The notes below the pieces were generated by a model, which was not told where the DNA came from, did not search any database, and saw nothing but the letters and a program-made list of their open reading frames with translations. Below, in pieces: positions 4,072 to 44,862 of a DNA stretch of 64,000 nt. Source of the stretch: Candidatus Poseidoniaceae archaeon (GTDB taxonomy: Archaea > Thermoplasmatota > Poseidoniia > Poseidoniales > Poseidoniaceae); NCBI GenBank assembly GCA_938030705.1, contig CALHIR010000027.1:1-64000 (forward strand), written 5' to 3'. The translations under genes and the position numbers were made by a program. Each line of letters starts with the position of its first letter. The stretch's first letter is position 1.

Positions 4072-4875
4072 TCAGGCGATACGTTCCACGGTTTCAGGCG
4101 TAATGCCTTCTTCTGGCGTAACACGGAACACGAGAATTTTGAGATTCTCTGGAGCGTTTCTGAATTTTGAAACGATCATGGAGTTTTCAAAGTCCGTACC
4201 GATGGTTCGAACCTTAAACGACAACACCATGTCGGCGATGGAGGACAATTCCTGTTTGATGGAAGGATCAAGACCGTCAGTCGATACCGAAATCATCAGC
4301 AAACCACGCACCATTTGGGCGTGAGCCTGGAGCATACGAACCATGGAGATGACCCGGGCAGGGTCTTCTCGCTGCAGGAAGAAATCAAGGTTGTCAAGGA
4401 CCACCCTGAAATACGGCCCGAGACCCATAATTTCGTTGGTCACCTCAGTCAGGTAGTCTTGACTGCTGTCATCGACAAACCGAGTTTGAGCAAGGCGTTG
4501 GATGTCAGCCAGTTGGAAGCCTTCGAGGCGGTACCGGCTTGCGAGCAGTTCACGTTCGAGGACATTGGCGTTGTATTCTTCCCCAATCGTTCGAACTTTG
4601 ATGTCGAGCGGCCAGTTGTATTTCTTGAAAATCCGAATAATTTCCTGCTGCCCTTCATCGGTGGCGATGTAAAGGGTATTTTCGGATTCTTCTGCAGGAG
4701 AGGTGAACTGTTTGGCGAACAACTCGCTCCCTGAGCCAGTCTCGGTAAACGCAATCATGGTGAAACCTCGGGGGACGCCCCCTCGCATTTCGTTGTCGAA
4801 CTTTGGGACGCCAAAGGAACCGACGGAGCCAAAGAACTCTTCATCCTCGGGGTCAAACGTGAATTTTCGAGCCAT
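4072..4875 (-). CDS. KaiC/Rad55-like RecA-fold protein with degenerate Walker A (third of three)
   Basis: RecA-superfamily protein of 267 residues. The N-terminal region (VPKFDNEMRGGVPRGFTMIA) aligns by eye with the start of KaiC-like domains, but the P-loop reads TETGSGSELF, with Glu51 where the catalytic Lys should be. A Walker B-like strand is present (YFRVVLDNLDFF, Asp161). ATP hydrolysis is therefore doubtful, and a regulatory or scaffolding role is more likely. A GAGGTGAT site before the ATG sets the start, 11 bases after the end of the second KaiC-like gene. Archaeal KaiC-like proteins include ArlH/FlaH and circadian-type KaiC, but nothing here allows a specific assignment. Confidence 0.75.
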   Translation of the reverse strand: MARKFTFDPEDEEFFGSVGSFGVPKFDNEMRGGVPRGFTMIAFTETGSGSELFAKQFTSPAEESENTLYIATDEGQQEIIRIFKKYNWPLDIKVRTIGEEYNANVLERELLASRYRLEGFQLADIQRLAQTRFVDDSSQDYLTEVTNEIMGLGPYFRVVLDNLDFFLQREDPARVISMVRMLQAHAQMVRGLLMISVSTDGLDPSIKQELSSIADMVLSFKVRTIGTDFENSMIVSKFRNAPENLKILVFRVTPEEGITPETVERIA

Positions 4876-4886
4876 GCATCATCACC

Positions 4887-5486
4887 TCAGAGAAGGACCA
4901 CCTGTCCCCGGTCGATCAAATCCGTGCAGTAGGTGTCCAAGTTCGCAAGGACAAGGGGAGGCGTTTGGTCGGGAACATTCAGCATGACCGACAGTACCTC
5001 TCGCTGCCTGAAAGTGTTGATGAAGGTGTGAAGATATTCTGCGAGCATTCGGTCATCGTTGTAGATGGCGAGCGCGTTCACGCTGTCAAGGAAGACAAAA
5101 TTTCGTGGATTATTGGTCGTCCTCAGCGTGTAAAGCGTACGCAGTAAGATGCTCTCCAGCATGATGGGGCTGTCGATGAACGTGATGTTGGAATACGGAA
5201 CATCCGTTCCGCCAAGAACGCCAGACGAGACCAAATCAAGGAAATGGATGCCGGAAACGTCCATGCCAATTGTTTCGAAGGCTTGGATAATCTCCACTGC
5301 ACTGCGGCTGGCGGAGATGTAAACACCGCCCATCTCGAACATTTGCATGAGGGGAACCATGGTGCTTGCGGTGACGGCAAAGGAATTGGAAGAACTCATT
5401 CGGACTTGAATGGAACTTCCTAGGGAGACTTGAGTCAGTTGTTCGGCAATCTGTTGGTCGAGTTCAAACATCATCATTGCCCCCAT
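4887..5486 (-). CDS. Short RecA-fold protein lacking a P-loop (second of three)
   Basis: Protein of 199 residues with the later strands of a KaiC/RecA fold but no GxxGxGKT in its N-terminal 60 residues. The Walker B-like strand NFVFLDSVNALAIYND is clear (Asp134), and SNITFIDSPIMLESILLRTLYTLR fits the helix before it. It cannot be a normal ATPase, so it may pair with the intact ATPase of the gene before it. Two starts are possible: the ATG at 5486, overlapping the previous gene by 13 bases, or the ATG at 5477, which forms an ATGA overlap with the previous stop. The tight overlap implies translational coupling. I do not know its function. Confidence 0.7.
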   Translation of the reverse strand: MGAMMMFELDQQIAEQLTQVSLGSSIQVRMSSSNSFAVTASTMVPLMQMFEMGGVYISASRSAVEIIQAFETIGMDVSGIHFLDLVSSGVLGGTDVPYSNITFIDSPIMLESILLRTLYTLRTTNNPRNFVFLDSVNALAIYNDDRMLAEYLHTFINTFRQREVLSVMLNVPDQTPPLVLANLDTYCTDLIDRGQVVLL

Positions 5487-6256
5487 CTGGACGTTTTATC
5501 AGCAGAAGCACCCCATTTGAGCATTGGAATGAGCATCACCCCAAGCGGCGTGAGTTCAATAGCGTGTTTCGCACGACTGTGGGAGGTACCTCGCATTTTC
5601 ACCACTTGCAAGAACCGCAACAAGTGACCCATTCGCTCCGAGTCGCCCATGACGATGATGCCGTCGGCGATGGCCTCTTCAACGCCAAACGAGGACCAGT
5701 GGGCGTTTTCGGTAGCCGAGGTGATCTCTGAAATCAAAATGGTGGTGCAACCGAGCGTGGCCAGTTTCTTTCCGAGCGTGAACAAAAAGTCTCGAATCAG
5801 TTGTTCGGATTTAATTTTGTAGCAGAGCGTGGTCACTGAATCGATGACCAATCGCGTAACACCGATGGTGTTGACGATGTCGACGATGGACTTGATGAGG
5901 GCGTGAACGTCATCAAGGTCAAACGAGGCCTTTTCGAGGCCCAACCAAGAATAGAGGACGTCCATGTCAAAGACGTTGATGAGTCCGGAATCCACCATGT
6001 TCATGTCGAAAAAGGCGTATTGGCGGATGTTCTCAAGCAGTTTCACCGAAGGTTCGGTCGCCGTAAAATGGGCGCAGGCTTCACCGGCCAATGCTCCACG
6101 GACAAGAAACTCCATGGCAAGGGTGGTCTTCCCTGAACCACAGGTCCCTGCGGCAAGGACCGTTGAGCCGTACGGAATGCCGCCACGAAGAATTTCATCC
6201 AGTCCGTGGATGCCCGTTACGCATCGGTCTCGGGTGTAAACGCTCGTCGGTTGCAT
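5474..6256 (-). CDS. KaiC-like ATPase with intact Walker A (first of three)
   Basis: RecA/KaiC-family ATPase of 260 residues from the ATG at 6256 (MQPTSVYTRDRCVTGIHGLD). The start agrees with the usual 'TGIxGLDEILxGGIPxG' opening of KaiC domains. Walker A is GTCGSGKTT (residues 37-45) and Walker B is RLVIDSVTTL (Asp139). A single domain is present, compared with two in cyanobacterial KaiC. The frame opens to 6373, but that would overlap the pilin-like gene. No Shine-Dalgarno is seen before 6256, so it may be leaderless. It heads an overlapping set with two RecA-fold genes that lack a working P-loop, and probably supplies the ATPase activity for a complex of the three. Confidence 0.88.
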   Translation of the reverse strand: MQPTSVYTRDRCVTGIHGLDEILRGGIPYGSTVLAAGTCGSGKTTLAMEFLVRGALAGEACAHFTATEPSVKLLENIRQYAFFDMNMVDSGLINVFDMDVLYSWLGLEKASFDLDDVHALIKSIVDIVNTIGVTRLVIDSVTTLCYKIKSEQLIRDFLFTLGKKLATLGCTTILISEITSATENAHWSSFGVEEAIADGIIVMGDSERMGHLLRFLQVVKMRGTSHSRAKHAIELTPLGVMLIPMLKWGASADKTSRWGQ

Positions 6257-7563: not shown

Positions 7564-10515
7564 ATGACCGAGCGAAAGCAACGCGAGATACCCCACCGCA
7601 GAACCAGTCTTGGTTTCGTGGTGATGCTCCTTCTGTCAACGCTGGGCGTGCTTGCTACCGCACCGGCTTCAAGCGCCAATGTGACAGGATCAATTGGCAT
7701 CTCAGGGAGCACCTCGCCGGTCCCGGGCGCATGGTACTCCTCTTTCGACACCATTGGTTTCGAAGCAGATGTCACGAATTATTACGCCAGCCCGTCAGGA
7801 GCCGCCCGAACCCTCACTTGGTACGCTTGTGAGGGCAACATCACCTCGTCGATCTGCAAATCGGTCTACGAGGAAACCGGTCAGTTCAACATGGGCAACA
7901 TCCAAGGACAAAGCACCGAGGCCATTCCCTCAACTGACCTTTGGATTCCGGGCCAAAACGCCGAGGGCATCTTCACCATTGTTTACAGTTTCAACCAAAA
8001 CGACCAAGTCCCCGCCGACGATGAATTCCGCTTCACCATCAACTTGACCAATGATTTTGTTGATGTCATCGCCGACACCACCCACAACCCCATTGAACAC
8101 CTACAGAACCTTGCTGTTTACGATGATGAAAGCGTATTGAACACCAACACCGATTATGTCTTCAAAACCAAGGGCCAATCCACCGTGTGCAATGTATGTA
8201 CCTTCTCAGGAGAATTTGGATGGCAACTCTGGGATGCGGAAGAAACGATGATGCTCAAGGAAGCCTACAAGACGGTTGAAACACTCCCCATTTGGGACGG
8301 CTACTTACCTTACAACATCAACCTCCCGGAGTTTAATTACGGACAAGAAGGACGATATACGCTGAAATTCGGGCTTTTTAGCAGCACGGGCAACCCCTAT
8401 GCCGACCTCAACCCAAACAACAATCTTGCGACCTATGAAATTGTCCTCAACGACAGCATCGACCTCAAAGTGATGGATGTTTACCCCAGCCACAACGCCC
8501 AATCCTCTCAATTCTATTACGGCAACGACCGCGTGATCTCTTCCTTTGCCAACCTCGGCAATATGTCAGTGGAGAACGTCATGGTCTCGTATCAGGTTTA
8601 CAATACCCAATACGACCTTGAAGTTGAAGACAGTTGCGAGATAGCCCTCATCCACCCCGGCGAAACGGAGACTTGCACGTTCAACATGACGACGACAGGC
8701 AACAACCGATTGATTCGTGTTCAACTCCCCACCATCTATCAAAACGGTGAAGATGTGCGAATGAGCGATAATTTGTACACACTCAACGCCGATGTACAAG
8801 TTGGTGCCATCAACCCCTCAGTCCAAACCAACGCCGACAACAACGTGTATCTGACAAGTGAAGATGTTGAACTCGTGGCCCGTTTCAACCCCATCGCATC
8901 CCAACCCCTGAATTACACTTGGCGAGAAGGATTCTATGTTTGGGGCCATGGCCAAGTGCTGAACAGAACGGGGGAAGACTTCGGCCTGGGCCACCACAAC
9001 CTCACGTTGCAGGTCACCGACCCGTGGGGAGAAACTGAATACGCCTATGTGGAGTTCGACGTCCTGAATTCGATTAACTTGACCCTGGAGCCTTACTTCA
9101 CAGGCGTCGCCATCACCGAAGAAGAAGCTACGTTTGAGCATGAGATTCTCCTTCCCCATCTCGGAAAGAATTACGGCATCGGAGGTGGCGATTCACCCCT
9201 CATGATGATCGCCATTGACGTTCAACCGCTCACCAGTCAGGATGAAGGTTTGCGAAGCCTCGACCTGAATCTGAACCTCACGGCACTCTTGCCAGAAAAC
9301 ATTGACTTGACCACCGTGGATATCCGCTATCTCCCCTCCACCGACAGCGTGTCATGGGAATTCCTCGACGGGGTTGACAGCTACACGTTTGGACCAGACT
9401 TCGAGGAGGTGGAGATCTCAATGACCAAGGACGGTGTAATCTTGCTCATCGGCGTCCTCCCTGTAGCCAATGTCACGGCACAGGACGTGGAATGGACCCA
9501 ACTCATGGATGGCCAAATCCAACTTGATTGGACGCCAACAGGCGACATCACCAACCCCTACGTGGGAGGGTGGAACATCTACAAGATTCAAGGCGTTTCC
9601 GGCACCACAGTCTTCCCTGAAACGGCGACCGGCGTGAACGAGAACATTTGGGAAGAACTGACCCTTGAAAGCCATGTCGCCACCTTACCTCTGTCCGACC
9701 AATCATGGCTTGACCCCGACCATCTGGAAACGGGCATCTGTGCTTCTTACGCCATCATCCCCATCGATCGTGAAGGAAACCCCAGCTTGCAGAAGGCCAA
9801 CATCACACGCTTGAACGGTGTAGCAGGCCAACTTTGCGGCGATGCCATTCCACCGGACACTTCCTTGGTTGGCCTCACTCACACCTGGGCGTTCAGCAAC
9901 AGCACAGATTGCTTTGAGCAGCAGCAAGATTGGTCGGTATGCTACACCGTTGAACTGTCTTGGACATGGCCCGCTCACGAAGCGCAAGGCAACGTGTCGT
10001 GGAACATTTATCGAGTGGAAACGCGACCAAACAATGTTGACCTCAAGTTCATTGAGCCGATGGTCGAAGGACAGGAAGGCGTCCCCGGCGAGAGAGGGAC
10101 TCTTACCCAAAGCGGTCTCGACAGAAACGGCATCCTCCCCTATCGGACGTACTACTACATCTTCACGCCCATTGACGGCGTAGGCAACGAATTGATGCTG
10201 GCAGACTATCCTTCGGACAACATTGAGCGCGTTCACATCGAAGACGACTGGTGGTCGTACAACCAACACCTTATCCCGCCTGAACCAGAAGCCCCTGAAC
10301 CCCCGCTCGGCATGCCCTGGCTGCAAAAAGTGAATGACGCAACCCAAGTCCCCGAATTCCAAACGGCCGGGTTTGTTCTCCTTGTCACTATCGTGCTCAA
10401 CTTCCTGCTTCTCCCGTTGTTGCTCAAGCAACGAAAGCGACTCAAGCGTGTGCTCGATGCCCGAAAGCGCAACAGCGCTCCTGCGGCCAACGAATTCGAT
10501 GACTTCTTTGAGTGA
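7564..10515 (+). CDS. Large secreted, membrane-anchored surface protein with CARDB-like domains
   Basis: Protein of 983 residues. A signal peptide covers residues about 1-39 (basic start, LGFVVMLLLSTLGVLATAPASSA). The extracellular part is rich in Asn/Asp/Thr and beta-strand-like. Around residues 280-430 it reads like CARDB adhesion repeats (spaced CxxC pairs, NNNLATYEI). A fibronectin-III-like region lies around 640-880. Near the C-terminus VPEFQTAGF leads into a membrane helix (FVLLVTIVLNFLLLPLLL). A basic stop-transfer and a cytosolic tail of about 30 residues follow. The PEF-like start of the helix is reminiscent of PEF-CTERM tags, but the tail is too long for one. Composition is more AT-rich than neighbouring enzymes, as is common for surface proteins. 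It is a likely adhesin or S-layer-associated protein. Confidence 0.8.
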   Translation: MTERKQREIPHRRTSLGFVVMLLLSTLGVLATAPASSANVTGSIGISGSTSPVPGAWYSSFDTIGFEADVTNYYASPSGAARTLTWYACEGNITSSICKSVYEETGQFNMGNIQGQSTEAIPSTDLWIPGQNAEGIFTIVYSFNQNDQVPADDEFRFTINLTNDFVDVIADTTHNPIEHLQNLAVYDDESVLNTNTDYVFKTKGQSTVCNVCTFSGEFGWQLWDAEETMMLKEAYKTVETLPIWDGYLPYNINLPEFNYGQEGRYTLKFGLFSSTGNPYADLNPNNNLATYEIVLNDSIDLKVMDVYPSHNAQSSQFYYGNDRVISSFANLGNMSVENVMVSYQVYNTQYDLEVEDSCEIALIHPGETETCTFNMTTTGNNRLIRVQLPTIYQNGEDVRMSDNLYTLNADVQVGAINPSVQTNADNNVYLTSEDVELVARFNPIASQPLNYTWREGFYVWGHGQVLNRTGEDFGLGHHNLTLQVTDPWGETEYAYVEFDVLNSINLTLEPYFTGVAITEEEATFEHEILLPHLGKNYGIGGGDSPLMMIAIDVQPLTSQDEGLRSLDLNLNLTALLPENIDLTTVDIRYLPSTDSVSWEFLDGVDSYTFGPDFEEVEISMTKDGVILLIGVLPVANVTAQDVEWTQLMDGQIQLDWTPTGDITNPYVGGWNIYKIQGVSGTTVFPETATGVNENIWEELTLESHVATLPLSDQSWLDPDHLETGICASYAIIPIDREGNPSLQKANITRLNGVAGQLCGDAIPPDTSLVGLTHTWAFSNSTDCFEQQQDWSVCYTVELSWTWPAHEAQGNVSWNIYRVETRPNNVDLKFIEPMVEGQEGVPGERGTLTQSGLDRNGILPYRTYYYIFTPIDGVGNELMLADYPSDNIERVHIEDDWWSYNQHLIPPEPEAPEPPLGMPWLQKVNDATQVPEFQTAGFVLLVTIVLNFLLLPLLLKQRKRLKRVLDARKRNSAPAANEFDDFFE

Positions 10516-13783: not shown

Positions 13784-14035
13784 ATGGTCAAACCCGCACG
13801 CCAACACACCCGCTTTGAACGCGCTCGAATCATTGGTGCTCGCGCACTCCAAATCGGGATGGGCGCCCCACTTTACGCTACTGAAGAAGTCTTGCGAGAC
13901 CAATTCAAGGAAGAACTCGTTTCATTGTACGGCCTTGAGGAAGCAAGCATCCGCTTTGTTCTTGACCCGCTAAAGATTGCTCTTTACGAATACGAAAACC
14001 ACTTGATTCCTATCGACATTGACCCTCACGAGTGA
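13784..14035 (+). CDS. rpoK: DNA-directed RNA polymerase subunit K (Rpb6 homologue)
   Basis: Small RNA polymerase subunit of 83 residues, equivalent to eukaryotic Rpb6 and bacterial omega, which stabilises the large-subunit clamp. Diagnostic segments are [21 protein letters not shown] near the N-terminus (split as [12 protein letters not shown] and ALQIGMGAP) and [17 protein letters not shown] at the C-terminus. It is longer than the minimal archaeal RpoK (about 57-60 residues) because of a central insertion ([20 protein letters not shown]). It stands alone here. The 3' end overlaps the convergent tryptophan dioxygenase gene by 10 bases. An alternative frame over the same DNA (13716-13973) has no family signature and was rejected. 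Confidence 0.9.
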
Positions 14036-15129
14036 GTCAGGTCAGACTTGAAGCCGTAAAATTCGGCATCGTCCAAAGGCGGCAACCCATCACGCTTCAA
14101 GAGAAGGGTGCGAACCGCCCAAAGGTCAACAAAGACTCGATATTTTGTGGTCGCGTCCAAATAATCAACACCGCTTGAACCACCGGTACCCATCCGACGA
14201 CCAATCATGCGTTCGACCATCCGAGCATGGTGCGTCCTGAAGAGCAACATGGCCTGTTCCAACTCCACGAAACTGTCGATCAGACGACGTGGCCAGGAGA
14301 GAAGGGGGAGTTCACGATAAGATTCTATAAACAGAAGGCCTGCTCTACTCCGAACGGGTTCACCGTCGTCGAGGAGGAAGTGCTCTGCACCGGTAATCCC
14401 TGCCTCGATGCGAGGACGAATGGTGGCCTCCTGTCCGTGGCCGATAGACACCATGTGTTGAATCACCTTCTCGGCGTGTGTTCTCATGGCCTTGAGGTGG
14501 TCATCCACATAGGAACGAACCACGGATACATCTTCCTCAGAACCGGGTGAGGACCCGTGAATAGGGGTCCTTGCCAACCATGCATTAAGGACATCGTTGA
14601 GGGAAGGTTGAGCCAACGTGGCCTCGAAATCCTCCAAGGCTTGAGCGGGAACCTTTCCTTGGTCAGCAAGTTGCCTCATGTGGTGGAGAGGGTCCATGCC
14701 ACCAACCCGCTGTTCATTTTCCAAACCAAGAAGGACCTCAAGTTCACGCATTTGCCAGGATTCGAAGCCCGATGAAGTCCCCAATCGGTCCCTAAACGCA
14801 AGGAAATCCTGTGGAGAGAGCGTCTCCATCACCTTCCACTGGTCGGCGAGCAGTCGGAAAATTTCGCTGACCCGCTCAAGGTGGTGGACCACCTGAGGGA
14901 TGGCCGCTTCTGCTATCCGCTCTTGATTCATCAATTGCCGAGCTTCTTTGAGTTCCCGCAGGATCAATTTGAACCACAATTCAAACGTTTGGTGAACGAC
15001 AATGAAATGAAGTTCATCGTTGGAAGGCGGTGGCGAATACCCTTCGGGGCCATTTTGGAGAGCCAACAATTCCTCCAGTCGAAGGTAGCCACCGTAGGTG
15101 ATTCGTGAGGCGGGAGCATCGGTTGCCAT
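14026..15129 (-). CDS. kynA: Tryptophan 2,3-dioxygenase
   Basis: Haem-dependent dioxygenase of 367 residues that opens the indole ring of L-tryptophan to N-formylkynurenine. Family signatures are [17 protein letters not shown] and [18 protein letters not shown] (with the active-site His). The C-terminal [28 protein letters not shown] contains the haem-ligand region and the substrate-binding GTGGSSG loop (quoted here as [18 protein letters not shown]). Length is between the bacterial (about 280) and animal (about 400) enzymes. No kynurenine formamidase or kynureninase is in this window. The gene stands alone, convergent with rpoK (10-base overlap) and divergent from purP across a 158-base promoter region. 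Confidence 0.93.
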
Positions 15130-30283: not shown

Positions 30284-31252
30284 TCACTCGAGAATACCCA
30301 ACAGGGCTCGCTTCGTCAGCGTCTTCACCATGGACCGGCGATACCGGGGGGGCAGCGCGGTGTTGTTGACCGGTTTGACCGATTTTTGGACATCTTTTGC
30401 CAAGACAACAGGGTCGAGTTCGCCTGCCTCAAGGTGGTCACCCACCTGTTGGGCGTGAAGTCGAGGAATGGATTCGAGCGCCGTGCTGGCGACCATCAAG
30501 GTCGAAGCATCGCCTGGGACCCAAGACGCAGCAATACCGGCTTCGGGGAAATCCCACGAATCTCGGACTCGGAGTTTTTGGTAGCAACCCTTGCGTTGAG
30601 CTGCTTCTTTGGGAAGCATCACTTTCAGGAGGAATTCTCCCGTCTTGAGGACGTTTTTCTTCATACCGTCCAGTTCGTAGAATTCAGCCAGCGGCATGGT
30701 TCGCTCGCCATCAGGTCCAATCAAAACCACCGAGGCATCAAGAACCATGAAATTGGGCGCCAAATCGCCCTGATAGGTTGCCACGCAGAGCGTGTTCTGG
30801 TTTGGAATCACACGGCAGTCGGCGCCAGTTCCACAATCCGCTTTGTGGCACCAATCGATGGAGCGCCGCCAGTCTTCGCTTTGGTTGTACCAAAAACAAC
30901 GCGTGTCCAAACACAGATTTCCGCCCACGGTGGCGCTCTTGCGGATGAGGGATGAAGCCACCTTGGAGGCTGCCTGCACCAGAAGCGGGTGGACGTCGTT
31001 CTCGGCGGTCAAGGATGAAAGAGGAACCATGCAGCCGAGTTCTTCGGAAGAGAGGACGTGGGCCTCCTCAATACCGGCGAGTGAAATCACATGGGGCTTT
31101 GGATTGATGCGCCATTTGTAATTTGGAAGAACGTCGGTTCCACCGGCAACCCAATCAAAAGCCTCGCCTTTGGCCATGATGGTCGCAGCGAGTTCAACCG
31201 CTTCGTCAACCGTTGAGGGGTGATGGAGTTCAAACGGGGGCATCAACATCAT
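30284..31252 (-). CDS. Molybdenum hydroxylase FAD subunit with extra Fe-S cysteines (HcrB-like)
   Basis: FAD-binding subunit of the xanthine-dehydrogenase family, 322 residues. The FAD signature is FDWVAGGTDVLPNYKW near residues 32-47, and the second FAD segment is KSATVGGNLCLDTRC. Residues about 114-160 hold an insertion with Cys114, 119, 135, 140, 146 and 156. It resembles the [4Fe-4S] insert of the 4-hydroxybenzoyl-CoA reductase beta subunit, whose ligand spacing (16 residues between the first two) is matched by Cys119 and Cys135. Ordinary xanthine or CO dehydrogenase FAD subunits lack this. The start overlaps the stop of the large subunit by 4 bases. The substrate is not proven, and a purine or an aromatic thioester are both possible. 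Confidence 0.87.
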   Translation of the reverse strand: MMLMPPFELHHPSTVDEAVELAATIMAKGEAFDWVAGGTDVLPNYKWRINPKPHVISLAGIEEAHVLSSEELGCMVPLSSLTAENDVHPLLVQAASKVASSLIRKSATVGGNLCLDTRCFWYNQSEDWRRSIDWCHKADCGTGADCRVIPNQNTLCVATYQGDLAPNFMVLDASVVLIGPDGERTMPLAEFYELDGMKKNVLKTGEFLLKVMLPKEAAQRKGCYQKLRVRDSWDFPEAGIAASWVPGDASTLMVASTALESIPRLHAQQVGDHLEAGELDPVVLAKDVQKSVKPVNNTALPPRYRRSMVKTLTKRALLGILE

Positions 31253-34059
31253 TCATCGCCTCCCATGTGGCGCTGTTCTTTTTTCAGCCACGCCCGGCCA
31301 GCAAACCCGAGTTCTGCCAACTGCTCTGGCAGGGGTTCATCTGCTTCTCGCCATCCTTCGACCTGCTCTGCCAACGGCCGGTCCGGGTCAAACCCGAACA
31401 AAACCCCGTTGACATACGCTGATGTATCCTCACTGCGCTGTCGCAAACGGTCGCGTTCCCGGTGTTCATCGCTGCGAGCAACGAGGACCTTCTGGAGGGG
31501 GCCGTGCTTCAATCGAGGCGATTCGATGGCTTCGGCATCATCAAGACCGTGCTGTTTGAGGTGCTTCTCAATGCCGGCATACACCACGTCGGGCGTGAGT
31601 GGGAGGTCCCTCAGCCGAATGCCAATGGCATCGTAAACGGCGTTGACCACCGCAGGGAGAATTGGGAGAAGGGGGCCTTCGCCGGCTTCTTTGGCACCAA
31701 ATGGCCCTTCAGGGTCGCTGGATTCCACAATGATGGCTTCCACATGAGGCATTTCATGAACGCTGGGAATTTTGTATTCTAACAGGTTGGCGTTTTGCAA
31801 GTGGCCTGTACGGCCGTAGACCATTTTCTCGGTCAGAACTTGCCCAAGTCCCATGTGGCAGGAACCGATGATCTGGCCTTTCACCGCCAGAGGATTCAGG
31901 GCTTTACCGCAATCATGGGCCGCCCAAACATTCGTGCAGGAAACCAAACCGGTCTCGACATCAACATCAACTTCTGCAACGTAAGCAGAAAACGAATAAG
32001 CCGGGGCAAGGCCGGCTGCTGCCCCTTTGTGAACTCCACCCATCGGAGGTGAGCGATAGGCCCCTCGAGCGATGAGTGCGCCGGTATCAGCCTGGGCTTT
32101 GTGCAAGGCTTGGAGATAGGATACGCCGACGGCCGGGTCGTGTTTGTAGTAGATGCGACGGTCGTTGAGCACCAACACGTTCGGATGATAGCCCAACATT
32201 TCCCAAGCTGCTTTCAGCAATTGGTCCCGGATTCCAATAGCGGCTCGGATGGCCGCATTGGCGTTCATGAAGGTGACTCGGCTAGAATACGAGCCGAGGT
32301 CAACGGGGCTCGTGTCGCTTTCATGACTACGAACATGAATCATTTCGATGGGCAGGGCCAGAACCTCCGCCACCACTTGGGCAACGGCCGTGGTTGACCC
32401 TTGGCCGATGTCGGCTGCCCCGGTGTGCACCGTCACACCGCCATCCATGTCAACTTGAATGTGAACCGTGGCGTGTGGGAAATTCTTCGGATCCCAATGG
32501 ATGGGAAGGCCCGAGCCTGAGATGAAGAAACCACAACCAATACCTATGCCTTTTCCAAGCGGAAGTTGGCGGAACTTGCTGTCCCAATCCGACCCCTCGC
32601 GGACCCGCTCGAGTGCTTCTCGCATTCCGTTGGAGGTGATGCGGAAACCGCTGATGGTTCGGCTGTGTGGAGGGAGTAGGTTGGCCAATCGGAGGTCGAT
32701 AGGATCGACCTTCATCGATTCAGCCATTTCGTCAAGGCCAACTTCAACGGCGCAACGCGTGTTAACGGCCCCGTGACCCCGCATGGCTCCGGAAGCGGGT
32801 TTATTCGTCCAAACCCTCGCTCCCGTGTAGTGGAACGAACCCAACTCGTAGGGAGCAGTAGCCAGTACCCCGTTGTAATAGGAGGTGACGTGGCCAAAGG
32901 AAGCAAAACCCCCGCCGTCGATGAGTGCGTCGATATCAAAGCCGGAAATCCGGCCGGATTCATCGGCCGTCATCTTGACATCGATGTGGCTGGGGTGGCG
33001 TCCTCGGTTGATCCAGTACACCTCCTCACGGTCAAAGGTGATGCGAACAGGCCGGCCCGCTTTGCGCGCCAACAGGGCAGCGCACATCTCGTGAGGGAAG
33101 GGGTCGGATTTACCGCCGAAGCCCCCGCCCACAAAGGTTCTGATGACATTGATCTGATGCATAGGCACATCCAACACCGTTGACAGTGCACGATGGGTGT
33201 AGTGGGGCACCTGCTGGGGCGTGTAGAGTTGAAGCCGTCCGTTTGGGTCCCAGTGCGCCACCACAGCGTGCGGTTCGGTAAACCCGTGGTGAACGCCCGA
33301 CATGGTCCACGAGCCGTGCGAGGAGGCATGCGGTGTTTTGACCAGGGAGCGGTCGCCGAATTCTTGGAACACGCGCTTTTGCACGTTGGTTCGAGCAAGG
33401 TGGTATTTCCCTCGCCAGTGAATGGGCTCGTCGTGATCTTCGAGCCCTTTCTTGGGGTCAAAAACGGGCTCCAATTCTTCCCATTCAATATCAAAAAGAG
33501 AAAGCGCTTCAATGGCAGTAGCTTCGTCCACGGCAGCCACACAAGCGACCAAATCCCCGACGTGTCGGACCTTCTCAACTGCCATGGCATGTTCGTCCTT
33601 GGTCACGGGGAGAACACCAAATCGATTTGGCGCATCCTGGCCGGTGGAGACGGCCACGACCCCGGGGAGGGCTTCAACACGGCTGGTGTCAATGGATTTG
33701 ATGCGAGCGTAATGGTGCGGTGAGCGAAGAATTTTGCCAATCAATTCACCCGGCAGGCGTACGTCATCGCCGTACCAGGCCTGCCCGGTCACCTTTGCGT
33801 TGGAGTCGACCAGTGGAATGGGCTTGCCAACCACGGTACCGGTTCGGTCCCGGTCATGGATATGGTCGCCGGCAGGCTTGGGTTCTTTGCCCCCAACCGT
33901 CTCTGGAATGAAGTCCAAATCCCTCGGTCGCATCTTGGGGTCGCTTCCTCCTGAACCGGGGGGTGGGAAGACCTGCTTTCCTGCGACTCGCTTGCCGTCT
34001 TTGCGCACCTCTGAAGAAGGTGTTCCGGGCTGCTGACGATAACTTCCCATGGTGATCAC
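31249..34059 (-). CDS. Molybdenum hydroxylase large (Mo-pterin) subunit
   Basis: Molybdopterin-binding subunit of 936 residues, longer than the usual 770 or so. About 70 extra residues at the N-terminus are Pro/Gly/Lys-rich, and about 100 extra are at the C-terminus. Core motifs are TFVGGGFGGKSDPFPHE for Mo-cofactor binding, WTNKPASGAMRGHGAVNTR, HTGAADIGQGSTTAVAQVVA, and GPFGAKEAGEGPLLPILPAV carrying the catalytic Glu. These place it in the xanthine dehydrogenase/4-hydroxybenzoyl-CoA reductase family. The start is at 34059, overlapping the small subunit by 4 bases, with an alternative ATG at 34050. The Fe-S subunit precedes it and the FAD subunit follows. The cofactor is probably MCD or MPT, with maturation genes at 43.4-44.9 kb. 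Confidence 0.93.
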   Translation of the reverse strand: MITMGSYRQQPGTPSSEVRKDGKRVAGKQVFPPPGSGGSDPKMRPRDLDFIPETVGGKEPKPAGDHIHDRDRTGTVVGKPIPLVDSNAKVTGQAWYGDDVRLPGELIGKILRSPHHYARIKSIDTSRVEALPGVVAVSTGQDAPNRFGVLPVTKDEHAMAVEKVRHVGDLVACVAAVDEATAIEALSLFDIEWEELEPVFDPKKGLEDHDEPIHWRGKYHLARTNVQKRVFQEFGDRSLVKTPHASSHGSWTMSGVHHGFTEPHAVVAHWDPNGRLQLYTPQQVPHYTHRALSTVLDVPMHQINVIRTFVGGGFGGKSDPFPHEMCAALLARKAGRPVRITFDREEVYWINRGRHPSHIDVKMTADESGRISGFDIDALIDGGGFASFGHVTSYYNGVLATAPYELGSFHYTGARVWTNKPASGAMRGHGAVNTRCAVEVGLDEMAESMKVDPIDLRLANLLPPHSRTISGFRITSNGMREALERVREGSDWDSKFRQLPLGKGIGIGCGFFISGSGLPIHWDPKNFPHATVHIQVDMDGGVTVHTGAADIGQGSTTAVAQVVAEVLALPIEMIHVRSHESDTSPVDLGSYSSRVTFMNANAAIRAAIGIRDQLLKAAWEMLGYHPNVLVLNDRRIYYKHDPAVGVSYLQALHKAQADTGALIARGAYRSPPMGGVHKGAAAGLAPAYSFSAYVAEVDVDVETGLVSCTNVWAAHDCGKALNPLAVKGQIIGSCHMGLGQVLTEKMVYGRTGHLQNANLLEYKIPSVHEMPHVEAIIVESSDPEGPFGAKEAGEGPLLPILPAVVNAVYDAIGIRLRDLPLTPDVVYAGIEKHLKQHGLDDAEAIESPRLKHGPLQKVLVARSDEHRERDRLRQRSEDTSAYVNGVLFGFDPDRPLAEQVEGWREADEPLPEQLAELGFAGRAWLKKEQRHMGGDE

Positions 34060-34658
34060 TTCGCATGGCCAGGCGGCATGGTGGGCTCCTCAGGACCGGA
34101 TGGATGAGGGTCGGGGTGAGGGGCGCTTGCTGGGGCAGGGGCAACGACATCTCCCCGGTGAATGGCGGCGGCGGCCTCAATTGAGTCGATAATCTGCTGA
34201 TACCCTGTGCACCGGCATAGATTTCCCTCGATAGCGCAGGCGATTTCGGTGCGGGTCGGGTTGTCGTTCTCGTTGAGCAAAGCCTGTGAGGCAACCAAGA
34301 AGCCCGGTGTGCAAAAACCACATTGAGAGCCTCCATGGGTGGCAAAACACGTTTGGATGGGAGCAAGGTGTGCTCCATCAGACAGCCCTTCAACCGTGAT
34401 GATATCGGCACTTTGCACTTGACCTGCGAGGGTAAGGCATGATAATTTTGGAACCCCGTCGATCATGACAGTACAACAACCGCAGGTTCCCAGGTCACAA
34501 CCTCGCTTGACACCCAGTGTTCCGACTTTATCTCTGAGTACATCGAGCAGAACAGCATTGCTGGGTGCGAGGACTTCATGGGATTGTCCGTTGACGGTGG
34601 CAGACCACCGTTTGCCCTCCGGCACAGGAATCATCGAAACATGCTCATCGCCCACCAT
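34056..34658 (-). CDS. Molybdenum hydroxylase [2Fe-2S] subunit
   Basis: Small subunit of 200 residues with two [2Fe-2S] centres. The plant-ferredoxin-type site is GCDLGTCGCCTVMIDG plus a later Cys (LSCLTLAG). The helical-domain site is SQCGFCTPGFL followed by EGNLCRCTGYQQIID. The length exceeds the usual 160 because of a Pro/Ala/Gly-rich tail (APAPASAPHPDPHPSGPEEP). Starts at 34658, or at the ATG at 34634 (MIPVPEGKRW), which would fit family lengths better. It is the first gene of a four-gene unit (small, large, FAD, secreted). A possible TATA-like caattatca lies near 34700 on the minus strand. Confidence 0.93.
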   Translation of the reverse strand: MVGDEHVSMIPVPEGKRWSATVNGQSHEVLAPSNAVLLDVLRDKVGTLGVKRGCDLGTCGCCTVMIDGVPKLSCLTLAGQVQSADIITVEGLSDGAHLAPIQTCFATHGGSQCGFCTPGFLVASQALLNENDNPTRTEIACAIEGNLCRCTGYQQIIDSIEAAAAIHRGDVVAPAPASAPHPDPHPSGPEEPTMPPGHAK

Positions 34659-42815: not shown

Positions 42816-43364
42816 ATGGACAAGCGAGAGCAACGCATGGTCTGGATTGACTTGGAAATGACTGGGCTCGATCTTTCACGAGAATCCATTATTGAAATTG
42901 CCACCGTGGTGACGGACAGCGAACTGAACATCCTCGCCACTGGACCAAACCTTGCCATCAACGTACCCGAAACGCTGATTGAAAGCATGGACGAGTGGAA
43001 CACCAGGCATCACCATCGTAGCGGCCTGGTGGACCGTATTCGCAACGAAGGCGTCAGCGTGAATGAAGCGGAACAAGCCACGCTTGCGTTTCTCCGTGAA
43101 TGGGTGGACGAGAACAAGGCCCCGCTTTGCGGGAACAGTGTGTGGAACGACCGGCAATTCCTTGACAAGGAAATGCCGACGCTGTTGGCATTCCTCCATT
43201 ACAGAATGATCGATGTTTCAACCATCAAGGAACTCAGCAAGCGCTGGTACACCGATGTCCCGCGGTATCCCAAGAAGGGCGCTCATCTTGCCCTCGATGA
43301 CATTTTGGAATCCATTGAGGAGTTGAAGTACTTCAGAGAACGGGTCTTTACGCCTCAATCCTGA
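42816..43364 (+). CDS. orn: Oligoribonuclease
   Basis: DEDDh 3'-5' exoribonuclease of 182 residues that degrades 2-5-mer RNAs at the end of mRNA turnover. Exo I motif is MVWIDLEMTGLD (Asp and Glu), exo II is ATVVTDSELNIL to CGNSVWNDRQFLDKEMP, and exo III is KKGAHLALDDILESIEELKYF with the general-base His and the final Asp. The sequence is close to proteobacterial and mitochondrial Orn over its whole length (for example YRMIDVSTIKELSKRWY), which is unusual in archaea and suggests transfer from a bacterium. It stands alone. Its 3' end overlaps the convergent xdhC gene by 10 bases. Confidence 0.95.
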   Translation: MDKREQRMVWIDLEMTGLDLSRESIIEIATVVTDSELNILATGPNLAINVPETLIESMDEWNTRHHHRSGLVDRIRNEGVSVNEAEQATLAFLREWVDENKAPLCGNSVWNDRQFLDKEMPTLLAFLHYRMIDVSTIKELSKRWYTDVPRYPKKGAHLALDDILESIEELKYFRERVFTPQS

Positions 43365-44227
43365 CGCCAGGTCGACCCCTTTGGGTCAACCCCTTTGTGA
43401 AGTGACATGATTTGAGCGACCACTGCGACGGCAATCTCCTCGGGGGATTGAGCACCGATGTTGAGGCCGATAGGGCAAATCACCTGATCCAGTAGACTTT
43501 GAGGCAAGCCCTCGTCACGACAAGCGCTTTCAAACGCCTGCCATTTTGACCGACTGCCAATGACACCAAGACGCGGGGCGCTCACCCCGTCCAAAACCGC
43601 ATCGGGCGTATTGAGCAGGTGAAGGAGCCCCAACAACCGTTCTTGGTCTTCAGCCCAGTCATGACCCAAGAGAAGTACATCTGAAAATCGGGACAACGAG
43701 GGACCCGATTCCCCGCCCAACAACTTAGCAATCGGTGCCGAGGAGCGTTCAACGGCGTGCGGGTATTTTTCTATAGAAGCATAGGTATCCCGAGTGTCGT
43801 GGATGGAATACGCCCATCCAAGCCCATGAAGTGTGGACGCCAACGCCTCGCCGCAATGACCCCCACCCATGATGTGAACGTGTGGCATGGGAATCATCAC
43901 CTCAATGGCGATCGATACCCGACCGCCGCACAATGAATCAAGTGGCGTCACCTCATAGCCCTTCGCACCCTTGTTGAGTCCGTAGGTCACCACCTCGGCA
44001 AAGGGTTGCTCAGCCTCGAGAAGTAAACGGCGGCACCGTTCAAGCACCCTGTGTTCCAGCCCTGCTCCGCCCACTGTCCCCGTCCATGCCGCATCAGACG
44101 AGGACATCGCAAGACGGGCACCGGTTTTTCCCGGAACACTCCCGGCAGTGTTCAACACCGTGGCCATCACGACCTTGCGCCGGTGAGCGAGTTCACTCAA
44201 CACCCACTGCAGGACATGAGCGGTCAT
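43355..44227 (-). CDS. xdhC: XdhC/CoxF-family molybdenum cofactor insertion protein
   Basis: Protein of 290 residues of the XdhC family, which binds the molybdenum cofactor, helps its sulfuration and delivers it to hydroxylase apo-enzymes. The N-terminal XdhC/CoxI domain reads KVVMATVLNTAGSVPGKTGA and then WTGTVGGAGLEHRVLE. The Rossmann-like C-terminal domain begins with PHVHIMGGGHCGEALASTLH and continues with YSIHDTRDTYAS. It has RSKWQAF in place of the usual RRK segment. It lies 23 bases after the MobA-like gene on the same strand. The most likely client is the molybdenum hydroxylase at 30.3-34.7 kb, about 9 kb away. Confidence 0.9.
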   Translation of the reverse strand: MTAHVLQWVLSELAHRRKVVMATVLNTAGSVPGKTGARLAMSSSDAAWTGTVGGAGLEHRVLERCRRLLLEAEQPFAEVVTYGLNKGAKGYEVTPLDSLCGGRVSIAIEVMIPMPHVHIMGGGHCGEALASTLHGLGWAYSIHDTRDTYASIEKYPHAVERSSAPIAKLLGGESGPSLSRFSDVLLLGHDWAEDQERLLGLLHLLNTPDAVLDGVSAPRLGVIGSRSKWQAFESACRDEGLPQSLLDQVICPIGLNIGAQSPEEIAVAVVAQIMSLHKGVDPKGSTWRQD

Positions 44228-44250
44228 GAACGGTCCTCAACGGAACGCCC

Positions 44251-44862
44251 TCATATCCCTTCGCTTTGTGAGAAACAGGAGGAAAGGTGGCCCCCTGGCG
44301 ACATGAGGAGGTCAACATCCTCAGCCGTATCGATGTTCATATGAAGCCAAGGAGCATGAACGGCAACGGGCAAAAAATTCACCACATCACGAAGCGGTGC
44401 ATCTTGCTGGGCTGCGTTCACCCCCGCCACGCCCTCTGCATCCAACACCACAGGGTGGCCCTTACGGCCTTCATGTGATGGTGCAACATTGCCCTCGTGA
44501 CCGAGCAGGGTCTTGAGGAGGGGGACGTCCCAGCAAGGCCGGTCGACAGGGACCATCACCAGTTGTCGCTGCCCATGACCGAAGGCCTCAGATACAGCTT
44601 GTAGACCGAGTTGGAGGGAACCCGTTCGACCCAAATCGGGTTCAGGGTTCACGACAAGATGGGCGCTCGGCAACCGAACCCTCACCTCAGTTTCGATGGA
44701 GGCGTTCACCACGATGACCGGTTGGCATCCGGCCAAGAGAAGGCGTTCATAGGCCCACTCAACAAGCGTGCGGCCATTCACCGACACCAACGCCTTGGGT
44801 GCACCAAGACGACGGCTGAACCCCGCCGCAAGCACCACGGCTGGCACGAAATCGGTGTTCAT
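44251..44862 (-). CDS. MobA-like molybdopterin nucleotidyltransferase
   Basis: Nucleotidyltransferase of 203 residues that adds a nucleotide to molybdopterin. The family of MocA/MobA enzymes makes MCD or MGD for hydroxylases. The N-terminal nucleotide-binding signature is AVVLAAGFSRRLGAPKALVS. A second motif is LVMVPVDRPCWDVPLLKTLL, where the Asp binds Mg2+, and a late segment is GRKGHPVVLDAEGVAGVNA. The neighbour xdhC supports the CTP-type MocA role for a xanthine-dehydrogenase-family enzyme, but CTP versus GTP use cannot be told by eye. Divergent from the orphan gene at 44939 with 76 bases between starts. Confidence 0.88.
   Translation of the reverse strand: MNTDFVPAVVLAAGFSRRLGAPKALVSVNGRTLVEWAYERLLLAGCQPVIVVNASIETEVRVRLPSAHLVVNPEPDLGRTGSLQLGLQAVSEAFGHGQRQLVMVPVDRPCWDVPLLKTLLGHEGNVAPSHEGRKGHPVVLDAEGVAGVNAAQQDAPLRDVVNFLPVAVHAPWLHMNIDTAEDVDLLMSPGGHLSSCFSQSEGI

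Follow-up and report, generated by a model that had tools for sequence, protein, structure and literature searches.

The window, a stretch of 64,000 nucleotides from contig CALHIR010000027.1 of a Candidatus Poseidoniaceae archaeon, is part of a 2.0-Mb Poseidoniales genome. Three consecutive minus-strand genes at positions 4072-6256, here termed KaiC1, KaiC2 and KaiC3, had been picked out in an earlier note as a KaiC-fold set with a single working P-loop. Pfam matches for KaiC1 and KaiC3, and a predicted structure with a deep profile comparison for KaiC2, bear out this assignment. The trio and its closest neighbors comprise the following features.

5474..6256, minus strand: KaiC1, 260 aa, the sole member with an intact P-loop and the candidate catalytic subunit (PF06745, 178.5 bits)
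6122..6148, minus strand: Walker A motif of KaiC1, GTCGSGKTT, read directly; its GKT is invariant in alignment A2
5588..5599, minus strand: finger of KaiC1, KMRG, counterpart of the KxRG finger of KaiC; invariant in Poseidoniales and aligned with KFRN of KaiC3
4887..5486, minus strand: KaiC2, at most 199 aa, lacking a P-loop and stopping short of the finger
4072..4875, minus strand: KaiC3, 267 aa, with a degenerate P-loop and a conserved catalytic Glu position and finger
4717..4737, minus strand: degenerate P-loop of KaiC3, GSGSELF; Ser in the Lys column, Glu in the Thr column
4156..4167, minus strand: finger of KaiC3, KFRN, kept despite the loss of the P-loop
6328..7404, minus strand: pilin-like membrane protein bearing a lamin-tail domain on the outside (PF00932, 37.7 bits)
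7564..10515, plus strand: divergent surface protein of 983 aa, anchored in the membrane at its C-terminus; adjoins the trio in 17/19 long loci of the order

On the minus strand the genes run in the order lamin-tail protein, KaiC1, KaiC2, KaiC3, a UbiE-like methyltransferase and V-ATPase subunits H, I and K, the V-ATPase genes being assigned by reading. At the KaiC1/KaiC2 junction, CAATGATGATG, the TGA stop of KaiC1 falls inside a run of candidate ATG starts of KaiC2, so the two genes touch or overlap, much as the earlier note had it; KaiC2 more probably starts at 5477-5471 than at 5486. KaiC2 carries a conserved D/ESPxMLE motif and a Walker B-like Asp. The lamin-tail protein has an N-terminus, ERDEGALTAVIEFLSAF, that resembles a class III signal peptide, and its likeness to a pilin is confined to this pattern. 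It lies directly upstream of KaiC1 in 19/19 long Poseidoniales loci, and a homolog precedes KaiC1 in locus L174. The 983-aa surface protein may have a part in the trio system. Elsewhere in the window, V-ATPase subunit I (828-2876) has a histidine-rich loop, NDHHHHHDDHEHGHHHEPN, that is possibly metal-binding. By reading only, a molybdenum hydroxylase appears to be encoded by three genes at 30284-34658, one each for the FAD, molybdopterin and 2Fe-2S subunits, and 43355-44862 may contain XdhC/MobA-type genes for its maturation; the gene at 14026-15129 encodes an archaeal protein similar to tryptophan 2,3-dioxygenase.

KaiC1 (178.5 bits) and KaiC3 (59.1 bits) lie above the curated cut-off of 26.6 bits of the Pfam KaiC family, PF06745. 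KaiC2 falls short at 23.3 bits, with a match that begins past the P-loop region, and its homology is therefore argued from the predicted fold and the deep profile comparison with KaiC1. Foldseek searches of the PDB with the AlphaFold2 models of KaiC2 (pLDDT 79, pTM 0.81) and KaiC3 (pLDDT 79, pTM 0.76) return KaiC structures as best matches (E 1.3e-6 and 3.1e-13, respectively), and FlaH (4yds) is among the best matches of KaiC3 (TMt 0.74). Comparison of phylum-wide alignments with hhalign gives 99.2% for KaiC3 against KaiC1 and 94.9% (E 4.6e-8) for KaiC2 against KaiC1. The latter signal is absent when only Poseidoniales sequences are compared, phylum-spanning alignments being required, and PDB sequence searches with KaiC2 gave no genuine match. 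Judged from these profiles and models, the three proteins are members of one superfamily with the KaiC fold and not of unrelated families. For the circadian-like control raised in the earlier note no support was found. KaiC1 is a single domain of 260 aa that scores 98.4 bits against the CI-CII model TIGR02655 (cut-off 546), and no KaiA or KaiB was noted in the listed neighborhood of the trio. The window genome encodes a second, stand-alone KaiC-like gene (G000:C1:26351-27016; L085:7316-8053) with the odd P-loop GASGAMKSS.

The trio is widespread. KaiC2 is present in 72/73 genomes of the window's family (f1); for the sister family, f2, the figure is 14/73, from genera g14, g16, g18 and g21. Scanned with a KaiC2 profile, 198 of 390 genomes of the phylum (84 of 155 genera) contain a relative. 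Viral contigs yielded no relative of KaiC2. Nine weak matches in genus g19 were taken as chance; the one checked (L084) lies antisense in a PCNA-like gene. In all 49 Poseidoniales loci extracted, KaiC1, KaiC2 and KaiC3 stand side by side in this order, downstream of the lamin-tail protein. Among 49 loci outside the order, 31, from about 18 families, carry the whole trio side by side on a single strand, 14 have KaiC1-KaiC2 without KaiC3, and four are truncated or rearranged; the gene order is thus conserved far beyond the genus. Intergenic gaps in the complete loci outside the order are mostly -46 to 60 bp, and the complete loci L204, L205, L207, L208, L210 and L212 were left out of model building. 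Some variants stand apart. L206 (G245:C1:462000-476000), the second locus of one genome, has a KaiC1-like gene and two KaiC2-like genes; L211 (G199) has KaiC2-like genes in both orientations, and genes resembling KaiC1/KaiC3 lie about 5 kb off; and in L172 (3751-4872) and L174 (8285-9397) a gene between KaiC2 and KaiC3 matches Methanogen output domain 1 (PF18546), apparently in two domain copies, and may serve as a signal input. Median dN/dS values (NG86; pairs with dS below 1.5 only) are 0.013 for KaiC1, 0.043 for KaiC2 and 0.012 for KaiC3, rough figures given that dS is near saturation. All three genes are under strong purifying selection, and each of the three alignments has invariant columns. 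Because the degenerate pattern recurs across the phylum and dN/dS is low, it is far beyond what chance would produce.

The conserved residues divide the three proteins sharply. The intact Walker A motif that had been read in the first protein is confirmed in KaiC1, with the lysine present in 59/59 relatives; one of the two catalytic Glu of KaiC is nearly always retained, and the KxR finger is present. Relatives of KaiC2 likewise have no P-loop, in keeping with the earlier note, and their sequence stops before the finger, while the Walker B Asp is found in 73/73. The third protein had been read as carrying Glu in place of the P-loop lysine; the degeneracy stands but the register does not. HMMER alignment of the KaiC3 profile to KaiC PDB chains sets GTGKTVFAMQF over GSGSELFAKQF, and the same register is obtained from the KaiC3/KaiC1 profile alignment and from the relatives L173, L182 and L183, which still read GSGKEL or GAGKEL. 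With these three independent alignments in agreement, the lysine column of KaiC3 is occupied by Ser, Ala, Met, Thr or Ile (Ser in the window), and it is the next, Mg-binding Thr column that has become Glu or Asp. The Walker A Lys survives in only 3/62 KaiC3 sequences, in which nucleotide binding is possible from the motif, and the acidic residue in the Thr column is found in 60/62. By contrast with its P-loop, KaiC3 keeps the equivalent of Glu78 in 62/62 sequences phylum-wide, together with the finger Lys (60/61) and the finger Arg or Lys (60/61). As had been noticed, each of the three window proteins has a Walker B-like strand; it carries an Asp, which in KaiC3 is not universal among relatives. 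A single ATPase with two non-catalytic partners, as first proposed, is what these conserved residues indicate.

In KaiC rings, the KxR finger acts on the neighboring subunit, where it reaches the gamma-phosphate. The fate of KaiC1 in loci without KaiC3 is informative in this respect. The finger Arg of KaiC1 is found in 31/31 loci with KaiC3 vs. 4/14 without it, and the catalytic Glu (Glu78) in 31/31 vs. 7/14; the Fisher p values, 3e-7 and 8e-5, ignore kinship, and several of the 14 loci come from one family, f30. A genome-wide search of 13 KaiC3-less genomes did not find KaiC3 (best match 37 bits). Of the sequence data, this correlated change speaks most strongly for a role of KaiC3 in KaiC1 catalysis, although four KaiC3-less loci retain the finger Arg of KaiC1. 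Family f30 (L213-L216, L231 and L185) lacks KaiC3 as well as the catalytic Glu and finger Arg of KaiC1, and its set possibly has no active KaiC left.

The genomic surroundings of the trio point to type IV pili. A pilin of the Pilin_N family (PF07790) follows the last trio gene on the same strand, at a distance of at most 431 bp, in 18 of the 49 distant loci, representing 10 families. In 8/19 long Poseidoniales loci a Pilin_N pilin comes directly after KaiC3 and is followed by AroA-like and mostly also MutL genes. In the window's own genus the pilin no longer adjoins the trio, which counts against a link to pili, but an orthologous pilin (45-48% identity over its length) is encoded elsewhere in the genome (G000:C10:76021-76512; L201:14022-14513), still beside AroA-like and MutL genes and with a T2SSF-T2SSF-T2SSE operon about 5 kb away. 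The trio and its pilin appear to have shared an ancestral operon that broke up in this lineage. Within the trio loci themselves, genes for a pilus ATPase or platform were not seen.

The trio also tracks non-archaellar type IV pili in its distribution. Pilin_N is present in 73/73 f1 genomes; in f2 it is found in 14/14 trio genomes and in two incomplete g14 genomes, and the trio occurs in 0/57 Pilin_N-free genomes (Fisher p 3e-13, kinship ignored). Genera with an archaellum only usually have one T2SSE ATPase, those with the trio only have two, those with neither about zero, and those with both usually three (two in some genomes, fewer in incomplete ones); T2SSF counts run parallel. In the rest of the phylum Pilin_N is found in 109/115 genomes with KaiC2 vs. 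85/147 without it, so that pilins nearly always accompany the trio but the converse is not true. Genomes with the trio are larger on average, and part of the co-occurrence could therefore reflect genome reduction. Two traits expected of a regulator of type IV pili are seen in the trio: it is linked to pilin genes on the chromosome, and it co-occurs across genomes with a non-archaellar pilus ATPase and platform, the latter uncontrolled for genome size and phylogeny.

The earlier note had tied KaiC relatives in archaea to motility machinery through ArlH. This was right in direction, but the probable partner is a non-archaellar type IV pilus and not the archaellum. ArlH is a KaiC-family regulator of the archaellum motor ATPase ArlI. 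In the window genome a complete archaellum cluster lies on a contig other than that of the trio, C1, with archaellins at 79.1-79.9 kb, ArlH at 82.3 kb (C1:82298-82963), ArlI at 83.5 kb and ArlJ at 85 kb. Archaellins occur without the trio in genera g13 and g20, and the trio without archaellins in g16 and g21. That the trio is the archaellum's ArlH was rejected on both counts, ArlH lying elsewhere in the genome and the two systems being distributed independently. Against the ArlH model NF052589 (cut-off 215 bits) KaiC3 scores 52.7 bits and KaiC1 36.3 bits; the ArlH of the genome's own archaellum operon is also below the cut-off, at 167.5 bits.

These observations are best accommodated, with somewhat better than even confidence, by a hetero-oligomer of KaiC-family proteins that regulates a non-archaellar type IV pilus. 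The family assignments, the division of catalytic residues, the gene order, the selection, the link to pilin genes and the co-occurrence with pilus machinery are observed; a single hetero-oligomer, a finger acting in trans, and the target and direction of control are what we infer. KaiC1, KaiC2 and KaiC3 would be subunits of one complex in which KaiC1 binds and hydrolyzes ATP. KaiC3 would not bind ATP through its own P-loop, but its Lys-x-Arg finger may complete the active site of KaiC1, in which case hydrolysis would depend on assembly. KaiC2, devoid of both P-loop and finger, would serve for structure or docking. If it works in the manner of ArlH, the complex may control the assembly or activity of the pilus machine or of its pilins.

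The most serious competitor, still on the unlikely side, is a signaling hub that acts upstream of surface-structure gene expression and is not a component of the pilus machine, with the pilin as its target or a mere operon partner. CirA, a KaiC homolog in Haloferax, modulates motility and cell shape through transcription in this way (PMC13286277), the two loci with a Methanogen output domain 1 gene inserted between KaiC2 and KaiC3 would suit such a role, and some trio loci of families f6, f16 and f24 have no pilin nearby. No recurring DNA-binding protein was seen beside the trio, however; pilins and surface proteins do recur there. Another way to account for the operon is that the three proteins form no joint complex, KaiC1 being a homohexamer and KaiC2 and KaiC3 separate regulators. 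KaiC1 alone does contain all the catalytic parts, but order, orientation and spacing are conserved across families and the catalytic residues of KaiC1 tend to decay where KaiC3 is absent, which makes this arrangement improbable.

Three further possibilities carry very little weight. A prokaryotic counterpart of Elongator Elp4-Elp5-Elp6, an RNA-handling RecA-fold heterohexamer, is suggested by the ring of three RecA-fold subunits without canonical P-loops in Elp456 (PMC11050213), which follows a similar logic of degenerate paralogs. It is nonetheless very improbable: no match to the Elp4/5/6 families is significant, the only one being PAXNEB for KaiC1 at 12.4 bits against a cut-off of 28, the 50 structural matches listed are KaiC, FlaH and other KaiC-like proteins, and the genomic context is one of pili and not of tRNA modification. 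A functional tie to the V-type ATPase genes next in the window is scarcely credible. The same-strand run of the trio into the methyltransferase and V-ATPase subunits H, I and K speaks for it, but this neighborhood is found only in part of f1, V-ATPase genes were not found there in f2 or other families, and the methyltransferase is reversed in L072, L081 and L082; the link was rejected as lineage-specific. Finally, the loss of the P-loop in two of three proteins might be taken to mean that KaiC2 and KaiC3 are decaying duplicates, or pseudogenes, of one KaiC gene. This is refuted by dN/dS values of 0.01-0.04, and the presence of KaiC2 in nearly every f1 genome and the invariant columns in all three alignments also oppose it, so that it can practically be dismissed.

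A hetero-oligomeric regulator of this kind would be of wider interest. KaiC-family proteins are proposed regulators of archaeal signaling and of surface filaments, and the coupling of such an ATPase to its machine is known mainly for ArlH. In a conserved set where one KaiC protein is live and two are dead, the catalytic parts that each subunit retains allow its role to be deduced. The trio becomes a candidate for a complex that controls type IV pili in a major archaeal group, and proteins otherwise annotated as KaiC-domain or hypothetical become a testable unit. No description of the trio was found in the literature, though a mention in Makarova 2017 (PMC5717392) is possible. A bolder reading, tentative and open to real doubt, is that the trio represents a phylum-wide, previously unnamed heteromeric KaiC ring of one active and two dead subunits, in which a dead subunit completes the active site in trans and which serves as the switch of archaeal type IV pili. 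Such a ring would be an Elp456-like solution evolved among KaiC proteins, and would correspond to ArlH in three parts.

Several known systems share some of these traits. Like ArlH (FlaH), the trio has the KaiC fold and a tie to a type IV filament system, and FlaH and ArlH are, respectively, among the best structural matches and the best NCBIfam match (52.7 bits) of KaiC3. ArlH, however, is a single protein in the archaellum operon, whereas the trio comprises three paralogs, two of them without a working P-loop, away from the archaellum. With cyanobacterial KaiC it shares the fold and, in KaiC1, the P-loop, one of two catalytic Glu and the KxR finger; it differs in consisting of single-domain proteins from three genes, and KaiC1 has Thr in place of the first catalytic Glu. 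KaiC-like domains judged inactivated (iKaiC) occur in archaeal signaling proteins (PMC5847659), where they are fused to REC or HalOD1, while the trio proteins are stand-alone and clustered with an active KaiC. With Elongator Elp4-Elp5-Elp6 the common ground is three RecA-fold paralogs with degenerate nucleotide sites in a hetero-oligomer, presumed for the trio; no sequence relationship is detected, KaiC1 retains a canonical P-loop and the genomic context is different. Also comparable, through their link to type IV pili, are the lone KaiC-family ATPases found close to pilus loci of this type in archaea (arCOG01171, 01174 and 01175). The passages of Makarova et al. 2016 (PMC4858521) that deal with them regard KaiC-family ATPases as likely regulators of these pili whose second components are mostly unknown, and describe them singly, one with an unrelated helical partner; those passages contain no trio of one active and two dead proteins, and Thermoplasma is not mentioned in the text. 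Cuniculiplasma divulgatum, whose pilin genes are distant from a machine with two ATPases and a split platform (PMC12448462), has a layout that resembles the arrangement in the window genome.
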